Of a DNA stretch of 23,647 nucleotides, positions 15,568-21,229 are shown one piece after another. The position numbers and the translations under genes are program-made. Numbering within the stretch: the first letter of the stretch is position 1; every line of letters starts with the position of its first letter. The notes under the pieces are model-generated. The model was not told the origin of the DNA. It saw only the letters and a program-made list of their open reading frames with translations, and did no database searches. The stretch comes from a virus, in the IMG/VR virus record IMGVR_UViG_3300031841_002266, positions 1-23,647 of that record, one strand, 5' to 3'.

Positions 15568-16713
15568 TCAGAATGCGGGAGGCTTGGTAGCGGTACCAGC
15601 AAACAGTTCCACGCAAGCAGCGGGATTCAGATAGTCGGCTCCCATTGCGAGACGACCGAGAATAACATCGCCTTGGTAGACCACCGACACATCTCCACTG
15701 GTGACTTGCACCTGAGGACCGATGGCTTCGACGACACCAGCGCCTTCACGCTGGAAGATTAGACCGCAGCTGTTAGCGAATTCGGTTTCTTCACCGTACT
15801 CGTTGTTGATGCCAGCGACATCATTAGCAGCGTCTTCCAGGGTTTCAGACACGAACGAACCGGTGTTACCAGGATCGATAATACCAGGGTTAGTAGCGGT
15901 AGCAGAAGCACCGTACTTGGTACCATAAGAACCAAAGAACGGAATGTTCATGGACTTGTAGATCTTGATACCGGCAATCTCAATGATGCCGTTACCGCCT
16001 TGCAGGGCAGTGCCTTGCTCGTCGCGGTTGATCAGTCCGTTAGAACCGACTTCTTGGATCAGCTTGTGATACTGACGGGGGTTCAGAACACCCACACGTC
16101 CATCCTGGCTGACACCTTTCTCGTCAAGTGCAGCAGCTGCATCGTAGAAAGCGTTGACCAGAGCAGTGTCGTCATAAGCATCAGCAGCAGAAGCATTGGT
16201 GCCCACACGAATCTGAGTACCACCGGGCTCAATGAAGTTAGCCTTGGTGATCGGAGAAGCTGCACGTGCACCACGGGTCAGAGCACGGAAGATCAGACGA
16301 TCATACTTTTGTGCCAGAGCGTAGCCGATTTTACGAGAAATCTCAGAGCGCAGATCATAGTGCGCCAGAGTTTCATCGAGGTCATACAAAAATGCGCTGG
16401 AGATGAGCAGATCATCAATCGTGATGGTCTTCTCAGCCACCGGAGGTGCACCGTCATCGTTACCCAGGATAGCACGACCAGGCGTATGGAACTCAGCCTT
16501 GGTGTGACCGGTGTAGATGAACTGAAGAGACTTACCATTCTTCAGCGTACGCTTCATGACAAGGTCACGAGCAATTGCATTGTGCTGGAAGCCCTTGAAC
16601 ATTTCACCCGAAAAAAGCTTCAGGTAAAGAGCGCGGGCATCACCCGCAGAGTTAGATTGACCGGGACGAGTCAGTGAGGTTTCAAGGAAACCAGTCCCTA
16701 CTTGTTGTGCCAT
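15568..16713 (-). CDS. Major capsid protein (T7 gp10-like), 381 aa
   Basis: The size and opening (MAQQVGTGFLETSLTRPGQ, then ALYLKLFSGEMFKGFQHNAI and KSLQFIYTGHTKAEFHTPG) match the T7 gp10 HK97-fold capsid family. TIDDLLISSAFLYDLDETLAHYD and EISRKIGYALAQKYDRLIFRAL form the expected central helices. It follows the connector and scaffold, separated by the cargo block and a structured leader. There is no Shine-Dalgarno: the ATG is preceded by ACTCTCTATTTAAAA. Its codon use looks more G/C-rich than that of its neighbours, as expected for the most expressed late gene. No obvious T7-style slippery site for a longer minor capsid form is seen before the TGA. The intrinsic terminator follows at once. 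Confidence 0.95.
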   Translation of the reverse strand: MAQQVGTGFLETSLTRPGQSNSAGDARALYLKLFSGEMFKGFQHNAIARDLVMKRTLKNGKSLQFIYTGHTKAEFHTPGRAILGNDDGAPPVAEKTITIDDLLISSAFLYDLDETLAHYDLRSEISRKIGYALAQKYDRLIFRALTRGARAASPITKANFIEPGGTQIRVGTNASAADAYDDTALVNAFYDAAAALDEKGVSQDGRVGVLNPRQYHKLIQEVGSNGLINRDEQGTALQGGNGIIEIAGIKIYKSMNIPFFGSYGTKYGASATATNPGIIDPGNTGSFVSETLEDAANDVAGINNEYGEETEFANSCGLIFQREGAGVVEAIGPQVQVTSGDVSVVYQGDVILGRLAMGADYLNPAACVELFAGTATKPPAF

Positions 16714-16876
16714 TTTTAAATAGAGAGTAAATAAAGGTATAGACTCTCTGAACGTTCAGAGTTATTCAGTTGTAATATTTGTGGTCTATCCCACCGTCTA
16801 GACGGCTAGAGGTATCGGCGTACCGGCTCTAACCAATGCAAGGGAGGTCCGACTCTGAGGTGCCTCCCAAGCTATT
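16714..16876 (-). ncRNA. Structured non-coding leader of the major capsid gene
   Basis: There is no coding potential on the minus strand here, but a dense series of inverted repeats lies between the 48-aa gene and the capsid ATG. H1 (16842-16868) pairs GGGAGG with CCTCCC. H2 (16804-16834) pairs GGTTAGAG with CTCTAGCC (one G-U) and encloses CGG-TACG-CCG. H3 (16794-16805) is the palindrome CCGTCTAGACGG. P4 pairs ATAGAC at 16789-16784 with GTCTAT at 16744-16739. It encloses H5, the 16-base palindrome CTCTGAACGTTCAGAG (16746-16761). H6 (16722-16749) pairs AGAGAGT with ACTCTCT and shares bases with H5, so the two compete. It may be an mRNA leader controlling capsid translation or stability, a processing site, or a small RNA. 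I do not recognise a named RNA family. Confidence 0.6.
16746..16761. repeat. Perfect 16-base palindrome upstream of the capsid gene
   Basis: CTCTGAACGTTCAGAG lies 33-48 bases before the capsid ATG. As RNA it can fold into a six-pair stem with an ACGU loop. As DNA it could bind a dimeric protein. No T-tract follows on the minus strand, so it is not a terminator. Confidence 0.75.
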
Positions 16877-17023
16877 TCAAAGAAGATCTTTAAGGCACTT
16901 CTTTTGTTTACGACATTCAGCTTTTTTGTCGCCACAATGTCCGCAACGTTTGAAGACAGAACTACCCTTTTCAGGCGTTAGCTTCGTAACGTTGGCTGTC
17001 ATTTTTTTGGATTGTTGTGCCAT
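16877..17023 (-). CDS. Small four-cysteine (zinc-ribbon-like) protein, 48 aa
   Basis: This short gene starts at the ATG at 17023 (MAQQSKKMTANVTKLTPEKG) and ends at the TGA at 16877-16879. Residues 26-43 contain RCGHCGDKKAECRKQKKC, with Cys at 27, 30, 37 and 43. The CxxC pair plus two further cysteines in a strongly basic context suggests a small zinc-binding knuckle that could contact nucleic acid. The first 53 bases overlap the end of the 52-aa gene in another frame. An A/T-rich AATAATTATT precedes the ATG and there is no Shine-Dalgarno. I do not recognise a named family, and the function is unknown. Its place next to the capsid leader may hint at late-gene control or a minor virion component. 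Confidence 0.65.
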   Translation of the reverse strand: MAQQSKKMTANVTKLTPEKGSSVFKRCGHCGDKKAECRKQKKCLKDLL

Positions 17024-17129: not shown

Positions 17130-17144
17130 GATGACTCCGAAGTA

Positions 17145-17168
17145 CCTGACCCCCGTTCCATGGTCAGG
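17145..17168 (-). repeat. Hairpin in the psbA to 52-aa gene gap
   Basis: CCTGACC pairs with GGTCAGG over a ten-base loop. It lies 48-71 bases after the psbA stop and has no T-tract after it, so it is not a standard terminator. It may protect the 3' end of psbA mRNA or the 5' end of a transcript from the candidate promoter at 17203-17211. Confidence 0.6.
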
Positions 17169-17202
17169 CGACATGCGTCCCGAAGGATGAACGTACGGCG
17201 TT

Positions 17203-17215: not shown

Positions 17216-18292
17216 TTAGCCAATAAAAGGTGCGCTCAAAGCTACTTCCACCGACGATGCGGAGGCAAGGTCCAGCGGAAAATTGTGAGCATTTCTTTCG
17301 TGCATAACTTCCAATCCGAGGTTTGCACGGTTGAGAATGTCAGCCCAAGTTGGGACAACACGATTGTCAGCAGCAAGAATAGACTGATTAAAATTAAAAC
17401 CATTGAGATTAAATGCCATAGTTGACACACCCAATGCAGTCAGCCAAATGCCGACCACAGGCCAAGCAGCAAGAAAGAAATGAAGGCTACGGCTATTATT
17501 GAAGCTGGCGTATTGAAAGATAAGCCTACCAAAATAACCATGAGCAGCAACAATGTTATACGTTTCTTCCTCTTGACCAAATTTGTAACCATAGTTTTGA
17601 GAAATCTCTTCACTGGTTTCACGTACAAGTGACGACGTGACCAAGCTTCCGTGCATAGCACTAAACAAGGAACCACCAAAAACACCAGCAACTCCCAACA
17701 TGTGGAAAGGATGCATGAGAATATTGTGTTCAGCTTGGAAGACCAGCATGAAGTTAAATGTGCCGGAGATACCGAGCGGCATACCATCGGAAAAAGAGCC
17801 TTGACCAAAAGGATACACCAAAAATACTGCACTGGCTGCTGCAACAGGTGCACTGTATGCAACAAAAATCCAGGGGCGCATACCTAGCCTGTAGCTAAGT
17901 TCCCATTCACGTCCCAGGTAAGAGAAGATACCGATAAGGAAGTGGAACACCACAAGCTGGTAGGGTCCGCCGTTGTACAGCCATTCGTCAAGTGAACCTG
18001 CTTCCCAGATTGGGTACAGGTGGAGTCCGATTGCATTGCTACTGGGCACGACTGCCCCGGAAATAATATTGTTCCCATACAACAGGGAACCTGCGACGGG
18101 TTCACGAATGCCATCAATATCAACAGGGGGTGCTGCGATGAATGCAACAATAAAACAAGTAGTTGCAGCGAGCAGACAAGGAATCATCAGCACGCCGAAC
18201 CATCCAACATAAAGACGGTTATTGGTAGAGGTTACCCAGGAACAGAACTCTTCCCAGGTATCCCTACGTTGTGTAAGAATAGATTGAGTCAT
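17216..18292 (-). CDS. psbA: Photosystem II D1 protein
   Basis: This is a full-length 358-aa D1 (usual length 358-360), unmistakable from [38 protein letters not shown] and NPHSG-free helices A-E through to [12 protein letters not shown]. In this protein's own numbering, tyrosine Z is Y160, manganese-cluster ligands are D169, E188, H331, E332, H336 and D341, and the chlorophyll ligand is H197. The last residue of the processed protein would be A343, followed by a 15-residue tail. Residue 129, position 130 in standard numbering, is Glu, as in high-light D1 forms. Phage D1 replaces the rapidly damaged host protein so photosynthesis can power replication. It is inserted in the thylakoid membrane with five helices. 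It appears intact, with no frameshift or intron. A hairpin leader precedes it and a possible promoter follows it. Confidence 0.99.
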
Positions 18293-19669: not shown

Positions 19670-21229
19670 TTAGGTGGGTTGTGGTGGTTCAATAATTTGT
19701 GGGTTTTTTTGTGGATCAAGAATAGGCGCCTTAAGCATGTTAGGCATCTGTTTCATTTGTTCCATTTGCATCTGCTGTTCTTGTGCAGCAGCTTGCTCAC
19801 CTTGAATCTCTTGCATAGATTTCACAAGATTCAAAATGTCAATACCTTGGGATGCAGCCAAGCGTCGAATGACTTCATCAGGATTGATGTATTGTGCAAT
19901 CGATTCTGGACCCATGGTCTGTGCAATAGTTTGCAAGAATTGACCAAGGCTTTCACGGTCTTGCCCACGCCCCAGGGCATTGATGCCAGCCACAATAGTA
20001 GGCTTGACGATACCTTTAGGAATGCGTGGAATCTCTCCTTTTTTCTGTGCTTCACTGAGCTTACGGTTAAGGTAAGGCACAAGGAAATCAACAGTCAACA
20101 GGGAGAACAATCCACCGAGTTGTTGTTCCAATTCGAGTTGCGTCATCCGCACTTCTTCAGCTGTAGTGCGTTCAGAATCACGAACATTCATGATCAAGAA
20201 TGCATCAGCTAATCGACGTTCAAGAGTAGATGTCATCTCGTATGCAGTTTTAAAGTCGGCAGTTTTACCAACTTGAATAACACCCACATCGTCTGGTCGG
20301 CCTTGAATAATAGCGCCGTTCCCTGCACCAGCAAGGGTACTAGGTTTAGTAGTACTGGAAGGGCTAACTACAAACACAACTTTGGCAGCTGCTGCAGAGC
20401 CTTCTACCAATGCTTGAGTAAGTGATTCAAGAGATTTCAAATCACCCAAGAATTGACCAACTCTGCCACGACCATAGCTTTCACCATCGACAGTATTAAA
20501 CCTCAGAGGAATCCAAGGATTAACGTCAACTGGTGATTTACCTTGGGAACCTTTAATGATTTTATCTGACACTTCTTGGTGCCAAATGAATCGATTGTTG
20601 TCCCGCTTGACGTGTGTGTATACATCAACGTCATCATCATATCCATTGCTGTTGTCAACAACGGAACCTTGTTCAAAGAAATCAGGAGGAAGCATACCTT
20701 CCACCAACTTCTTACTAATTTTTTCTTTCGTGACTATTTCAATCACATCGCCGTTACCATCACGATCAACGACAAAGCGGTTAAGCGGAAAAAGCTTAAG
20801 TCCTTTCCGTCCCATAAAGATTAGAGCGTTTCCACCAGTAACCAAATGAAGCAGTGCTTGATGCACAACAACACGATCATCTGATGCTGCAATAGATTCA
20901 AGAATAGTCTTCTCAATCTTTGCAAAAGAAAGATCTAATTCAGATTTAATTTGTGGTTCAAAATCTTCACCCAGTTGACTTTCGTCTAGTTGAAGTTTAA
21001 AGAATGATCCTTGTACAGGAAGAAGAGCAAGCATTAATTTACTTGCCAAAGTAACAACACCTTTGGCTCCCACGCTTTGGTAAGGAGTCATCAGTTGTTT
21101 CATCCCGATGTTGTATTCTTCGTGACCACGAATCAAATACGGAAGAGTAAGCTTAGAAGCTTCATGTGCTTCATCTAAGAATTGGGAACGATCTTTAGTT
21201 AAATAGTCATACCTAGTTCTAGCTGACAT
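19670..21229 (-). CDS. Head-tail connector (portal) protein, T7 gp8-like, 519 aa
   Basis: The length is near T7 gp8 (536 aa). Family marks include MTPYQSVGAKGVVTLASKLMLALLP (residues 47-71), GNALIFMGRKGLKLFPLNRF near 132, PWIPLRFNTVDGESYGRGRV near 236, and RDSERTTAEEVRMTQLELEQ near 347. Twelve copies form the portal ring through which DNA is packaged and leaves. The C-terminus is Gln/Met-rich (QEQQMQMEQMKQMPNM), probably disordered. The start is at a TAATTATG junction with the preceding gene, without a Shine-Dalgarno. The terminase is not in this window. Confidence 0.95.
   Translation of the reverse strand: MSARTRYDYLTKDRSQFLDEAHEASKLTLPYLIRGHEEYNIGMKQLMTPYQSVGAKGVVTLASKLMLALLPVQGSFFKLQLDESQLGEDFEPQIKSELDLSFAKIEKTILESIAASDDRVVVHQALLHLVTGGNALIFMGRKGLKLFPLNRFVVDRDGNGDVIEIVTKEKISKKLVEGMLPPDFFEQGSVVDNSNGYDDDVDVYTHVKRDNNRFIWHQEVSDKIIKGSQGKSPVDVNPWIPLRFNTVDGESYGRGRVGQFLGDLKSLESLTQALVEGSAAAAKVVFVVSPSSTTKPSTLAGAGNGAIIQGRPDDVGVIQVGKTADFKTAYEMTSTLERRLADAFLIMNVRDSERTTAEEVRMTQLELEQQLGGLFSLLTVDFLVPYLNRKLSEAQKKGEIPRIPKGIVKPTIVAGINALGRGQDRESLGQFLQTIAQTMGPESIAQYINPDEVIRRLAASQGIDILNLVKSMQEIQGEQAAAQEQQMQMEQMKQMPNMLKAPILDPQKNPQIIEPPQPT

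Follow-up and report, generated by a model that had tools for sequence, protein, structure and literature searches.

A conserved, structured sense-strand RNA precedes the major capsid protein gene of marine T7-like phages and carries an exchangeable hairpin or tRNA-like 5′ module

In a viral-record fragment with a T7-like cyanophage gene order, the major capsid protein (MCP) gene follows a short leader crowded with inverted repeats. What molecule do these repeats form, and what could it do for the capsid message? The window (the whole 23,647-nt stretch of DNA that was analyzed) carries, in minus-strand order, psbA, a Glutamine-II riboswitch, a pair of overlapping small ORFs, the leader (16876-16714) and the MCP gene, and the leader starts immediately 3′ of the stop codon of the 48-aa small ORF in the following list:

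17216..18292, minus strand: psbA (photosystem II D1), upstream of the MCP gene and in the same orientation, from its ORF and annotated synteny in relatives
17144..17196, minus strand: Glutamine-II riboswitch (RF01704), in the interval between psbA and the small ORF, cmscan 51.9 bits, E 4.1e-10
16877..17023, minus strand: small ORF of 48 aa with CxxC-type cysteines, from sequence reading
15568..16713, minus strand: MCP gene, ATG start, from its ORF and identity to annotated cyanopodovirus MCPs

The Glutamine-II (Downstream-peptide) riboswitch is a known element, separate from the leader RNA described here. Both are structured RNAs that many of these phages carry between psbA and the MCP gene, but RF01704 has another sequence, structure and position, and it controls a small peptide ORF and not a capsid leader. 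It adjoins a small ORF with a YRGVSY motif, a known cyanophage association that recurs in most relatives examined. MAQQ (ATGGCACAACAA) begins both the small ORF (17021-17023, minus strand) and the capsid gene (16711-16713, minus strand).

Because the capsid gene lies on the minus strand, the repeats named by a sequence-only reading of this DNA are to be read on that strand. All of them were recovered at their coordinates, and the capsid start codon indeed lacks a Shine-Dalgarno (SD) sequence in the window. From the 5′ end of the RNA, the elements are:

16838..16872, minus strand: 5′ module of type H, a stem round the conserved loop GCACCUCAGAGUCGGAC with an inner hairpin at 16842-16868, 119 distinct stems
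16804..16834, minus strand: P1, an eight-pair stem (GGUUAGAG/CUCUAGCC) that encloses P2 and the conserved strand GAUACC, with covariation in both alignments and recovery by RNAalifold
16816..16825, minus strand: hairpin P2, CGG-UACG-CCG, paired in 99.6% of cells and closed by any of four pair types
16794..16805, minus strand: palindrome P3 of 12 bases, CCGTCTAGACGG, an even palindrome with 12 different centre 4-mers
16781..16794, minus strand: hairpin P4, GUGG-GAUAGA-CCAC, covarying, paired in 99.4% of cells across the 93-sequence alignment
16746..16761, minus strand: palindrome E of 16 bases, CTCTGAACGTTCAGAG, its centre some 40 nt ahead of the start codon, an even palindrome in relatives
16722..16749, minus strand: hairpin F, AGAGAGU...ACUCUCU, sharing 16746-16749 with palindrome E, present in the window and not above the arm-swapped control in relatives

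P3 shares positions 16804-16805 with P1 and position 16794 with P4. The minus-strand leader folds better than its shuffles (z = -2.97, 3 of 200 shuffles as good), and the plus strand yields z = -2.13. When the leader is mononucleotide-shuffled, a palindrome of at least 16 nt arises with P = 0.0036 and two palindromes of at least 12 nt with P = 0.0004. The comparative evidence is far stronger than these single-sequence statistics.

We collected 397 leaders, 256 of them representative, by scanning viral contigs with the capsid protein and a 17-mer from the module's loop, and by adding reference records. With blastn, the stretch 16778-16866 is matched in about 40 phage records, at one site each, ahead of the capsid gene. 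A MAFFT alignment of 95 cores placed P2 wrongly as a result of length differences, and it was replaced by a seed of 17 hand-checked leaders and a covariance model, R1. In the seed, 93.3% of cells are paired, double changes occur in 9 of 15 pairs, and the covariation score is 0.450, compared to 0.148 when shuffled and at most 0.086 in slid registers. Model R1 found 93 matches in 99 loci; in their alignment 91.5% of cells are paired, 12 of 15 pairs show double changes, and the covariation score is 0.445 (0.125 shuffled, at most 0.064 slid). The seed result is the cleaner of the two because the 93-sequence alignment was fitted to the model. Without guidance, RNAalifold recovers P1, P2 and P4 except for two middle pairs of P1, where mismatches are frequent. 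P2 is capped by a UACG-type tetraloop in most sequences, and the arms of P4 change together (GUGG/CCAC, GCUG/CAGC, GUGUG/CACAC, GUCG/CGAC and others).

The asymmetry of the mismatches tells which molecule is under selection. G.U pairs outnumber A.C pairs by 15 to 3 in the strong pairs and by 96 to 4 in the 5′ hairpin; therefore, the selected molecule is the sense RNA and not a DNA dyad. We conclude, with next to no doubt, that the leader is a conserved, structured RNA of the sense strand. Rfam offers no family for it: a scan against Rfam 15 reports nothing at 16714-16876 up to an E-value of 5 and only the Glutamine-II riboswitch in the interval, and a scan at permissive E-values adds only a chance snoRNA. 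Among the full texts searched there is no account of a capsid-leader RNA in these phages, though an earlier mention elsewhere is possible. On the basis of the missing Rfam match and these literature searches, the leader RNA is apparently undescribed. The sequence-only reading had proposed a novel cis-regulatory RNA, a proposal that a lack of covariation and of conserved stems in close relatives would have undermined; both are present, and together with the position before the capsid gene and the absence of an Rfam match they support it.

The leader keeps a constant position before one class of gene. Among 171 viral occurrences of the 17-mer, 166 lie no more than 400 nt upstream of an MCP gene, a count that includes loci fetched by MCP query. 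Two of the other five are on truncated contigs, one is a coincidental match within a coding sequence, and the last two are the loci L208 and L189. In L208, the hairpin module stands before psbA rather than the capsid gene; in L189, it precedes a virion-like gene lying directly before the capsid gene. In a further locus, L145 (minus strand, about 5888 to 5060), the leader occurs twice, ahead of an additional small gene and again ahead of the MCP gene. The extra small virion-like genes before the capsid gene in L145 and L189 possibly encode a decoration protein. The leader is thus a cassette that is portable between genes. In 257 Gb of bacterial and archaeal genomes the 17-mer has 11 matches, no more than chance, none of them titled as a cyanobacterium, and a host origin of the loop sequence was rejected.

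A free small RNA, released from the late transcript to act in trans, had also been proposed. A compact, structured RNA beside a possible cut site could be released in this way, but the leader almost always sits directly before a capsid or virion-like gene and was not seen detached. Positive evidence for such an RNA did not emerge from the comparison, and we regard it as highly improbable.

The innermost part of the structure reaches beyond the cyanophages. Pelagiphage HTVC011P and its relatives carry the core GCC-[hairpin with UACG]-GAYAAC before the capsid gene, and a descriptor of this core matches 36 of 47 distinct pelagiphage leaders. Their P2 pairs change on both sides, and a different hairpin lies 5′ of the core. 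Pelagiphage leaders have an SD-like GGAG and mostly lack a palindrome, whereas cyanophage leaders have palindromes and lack an SD sequence; an SD-like 4-mer occurs at positions -20 to -4 in only 4 of 249 representative leaders of cyanophage relatives. Model R1 is too specific and misses the leaders of both Syn5 and the pelagiphages, which were recognized by the core descriptor and by eye. Consequently, the homology of the pelagiphage leaders rests on motif, position and pairing. In leaders of the SS120-1 type (L093, L099, L312-L326), the GCC-P2-GAUAAC core is kept and is closed by a different long-range stem, GUAGGAG...CUCCUAU, which reaches near the start codon.

This pattern of conservation raises a first functional alternative, in which P1/P2 and the C/GAYAMC internal loop bind a protein or a small molecule to control translation, while the 5′ module is only an insulator. 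The ligand could be a phage or host protein, such as the capsid protein, the scaffold or a ribosomal protein, or else a small molecule. The most conserved nucleotides (GCC ... GAYAMC) do lie in an internal loop, as is typical of a binding site, they persist in the pelagiphages, and the leader adjoins a start codon that has no SD sequence. However, no conserved alternative pairing came to light for the start region, hairpin F being equal to its swapped control, and a pure binding site leaves the exchange of the 5′ module with tRNAs, described below, unexplained. We consider this alternative rather unlikely.

A second alternative holds that the element acts as DNA, either as a late promoter or as a protein-binding dyad. 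In T7, the promoter phi10 sits 63 nt before gene 10, and the start of its transcript, GGGAGACCACAA, resembles GGGAUAGACCACAA of the window. The palindromes are also perfect, with exact centres. The T7 gene 10 region is one of the nearest known likenesses, with the same gene and place, a structured leader on an abundant capsid mRNA and a short similarity, GGGA(UA)GACCACAA; model R1, when searched against T7, finds no match. The difference is that T7 sets the 5′ end with its own phi10 and has an SD sequence, whereas here the SD sequence is absent and, in Syn5, so is a nearby promoter. The RNA polymerase of Syn5 has two promoters only, one of which serves over 37 kb (PMC3950665). Their positions are 4929 and 44797; the capsid gene is at 20017 and has a tRNA-like module, P1/P2 and a palindrome in front of it. 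Because the promoters are far from the capsid gene, the leader must act after transcription, at least in Syn5. The element is also single-copy in the P-SSP7 genome and in the window, which is not the pattern of a T7-type late promoter, repeated in the genome and placed directly upstream. The promoter reading was rejected on these grounds. As for a dyad, G.U pairs far exceed A.C pairs, and the palindromes share no sequence, so no sequence-specific protein fits them. A DNA-level element of either kind is very improbable.

The 5′ module comes in two interchangeable types. Among 383 leaders, 276 (the window included) have the hairpin module, 93 have a tRNA-like T-arm, none has both and 14 are unclassified, these last being mostly near-variants or loci with a misplaced capsid start. 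In the hairpin module the stem varies freely around a nearly invariant top, and across the 119 distinct stems the five innermost positions are paired in 97-100%. The T-arm modules, of the tRNA-like type that P-SSP7 also has, carry loops such as UUCGAUU and UGCAAGU. On an MCP tree of 231 leaders, the module type changed at least 34 times, a count that capsid-gene recombination may inflate.

In five loci, the module slot is occupied by a tRNA gene according to ARAGORN: tRNA-Gly in NATL1A-7 (L090) and in L189, tRNA-Trp in L274, and in both L270 and L281 a ‘Cys’ tRNA whose anticodon is odd. In all five, the 3′ end of the tRNA lies 1-2 nt ahead of P1's first G, so that a tRNA gene stands directly at the border of the mRNA. 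In the window itself, ARAGORN finds no tRNA gene. The T-arm modules are mostly not full tRNAs; an acceptor stem of at least five pairs can be drawn in 72.7% of them, weakly above the 47.7% of a swapped control, and the Rfam tRNA model reports none of the tRNA-like modules, with weak matches to tmRNA and mascRNA only. In two freshwater loci (L268 and L266), a sequence upstream of the tRNA-like module, CCTGATGAG, resembles part of the hammerhead core; a GAAA box was not found there by eye.

A tRNA gene in the first part of the leader in some relatives suggests that these phages use the host's tRNA-cutting enzymes to free a protected capsid message. The sequence-only reading had listed an RNase processing site among its possibilities, and it is the best mechanistic reading because the 5′ hairpin is replaced in relatives by tRNA-like or true tRNA sequences; the cut itself we infer. 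Put in full, the leader would be both a processing punctuation mark and a protective 5′ leader of the capsid mRNA, a proposal whose cleavage, enzymes and gain in stability or translation are all conjectural and which we judge to be evenly poised between right and wrong. The 5′ module would punctuate a long late transcript running from psbA through the capsid gene, in the form of a tRNA or mini tRNA-like fold in some phages and of a substitute hairpin in this one. Host RNase P and RNase Z would cut the tRNA-like forms, and the same or another endonuclease the hairpin form. The hairpin module is without a T-loop, and that the enzyme is the same one is a guess. The cut would leave the capsid mRNA with the 5′ end UUGGC, directly at P1, and P1/P2 together with P4 could then cap the message against RNase E and RNase J. 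The result would be a long-lived, monocistronic-like message for the most needed late protein.

Several published observations bear on this proposal. Cyanobacteria possess RNase P, RNase Z, RNase E and RNase J (PMC10989914), and RNase E increases in the course of P-SSP7 infection (PMC9692554). RNase P cuts phage M3 RNA, C4 RNA and some mRNAs (PMC11143913). The C4 antisense RNA of P1/P7 and the phi80 M3 RNA are phage-encoded non-tRNA RNAs that imitate tRNA towards RNase P (PMC11143913), as the modules described here may do; they differ in being antisense or small RNAs, while here an mRNA leader would be cleaved. Antisense RNA reportedly shields the mRNAs of P-SSP7 from RNase E (PMC9692554), and this would lessen the need for a protective 5′ end. 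In tRNA punctuation, RNase P and RNase Z excise tRNAs from between messages, as in mitochondria; these phages share with it a tRNA or a fold resembling one that is placed between two messages and whose 3′ end adjoins the leader downstream. In contrast, most of the phages studied here have a degenerate tRNA-like fold or a hairpin that is not a tRNA, and the cutting is our proposal.

Processing could instead be of the RNase III type, with the 5′ hairpin and the palindromic duplexes serving as sites for RNase III or Mini-III. In T7, RNase III processes the late mRNAs, and the sites considered here would parallel those of T7. The RNase III genes of cyanobacteria number one to three, and Mini-III comes in addition (PMC10989914). 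Yet the stems are short, at about 6-10 pairs, RNase III does not need the nearly invariant loop of the hairpin, and tRNA enzymes account better for the interchange with tRNA-like modules. RNase III-type processing is accordingly improbable.

The palindromes pose a separate question. In 228 of 243 leaders, palindrome E is kept as an even palindrome, perfect over at least 8 nt, with its centre usually 30-45 nt before the start. Arms of at least 6 nt are found in 56% of leaders compared to 2% of shuffles, odd loop lengths stay at background, and the central 4-mer takes 12 different forms. P3 behaves alike, as an even palindrome with an arm of at least 4 nt in 72% of leaders and 8% of shuffles. 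Perfect palindromes with changing centres are not explained by an intramolecular hairpin: a hairpin needs a loop, not a self-complementary centre, which implies self-pairing between two molecules or some function at the DNA level. Both E and P3 have the sequence features of a dimer site, a perfect even palindrome and a variable centre, as does the retroviral dimer initiation site, where dimerization is known; here it is a hypothesis. Natural examples of functional RNA dimers are few (PMC7357161).

An intramolecular switch between hairpin F (16722-16749) and palindrome E (16746-16761), another idea of the earlier reading, finds no such backing. In relatives, stems of at least 6 pairs form in 52.6% of leaders and in 44.5% when arms are swapped between phages, so that hairpin F is no better conserved than arm-swapped pairings, and with this control no conserved pair of mutually exclusive stems was found close to the start codon.

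A bolder extension of the punctuation proposal would have marine T7-like phages swapping internal promoters for RNA punctuation by host tRNA enzymes, with the freed leaders dimerizing through lineage-private palindromes and thereby protecting or co-localizing the capsid mRNA. We hold this to be unlikely. The questions reach far, as cyanopodoviruses and pelagiphages rank with the most abundant of known viruses. T7 relies on many promoters; a leader possibly cut by host tRNA enzymes is a testable answer to how Syn5, with one promoter serving over 37 kb, makes capsid protein in excess over its other proteins. A true tRNA, a tRNA mimic and a hairpin in one slot form a natural series in the evolution of an RNA processing signal, and palindromes that are perfect yet variable are a clean question of their own. 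Finally, in five loci (L331, L333, L335, L340 and L360) the capsid gene is apparently split by an insertion of about 0.2 kb, possibly an intron.
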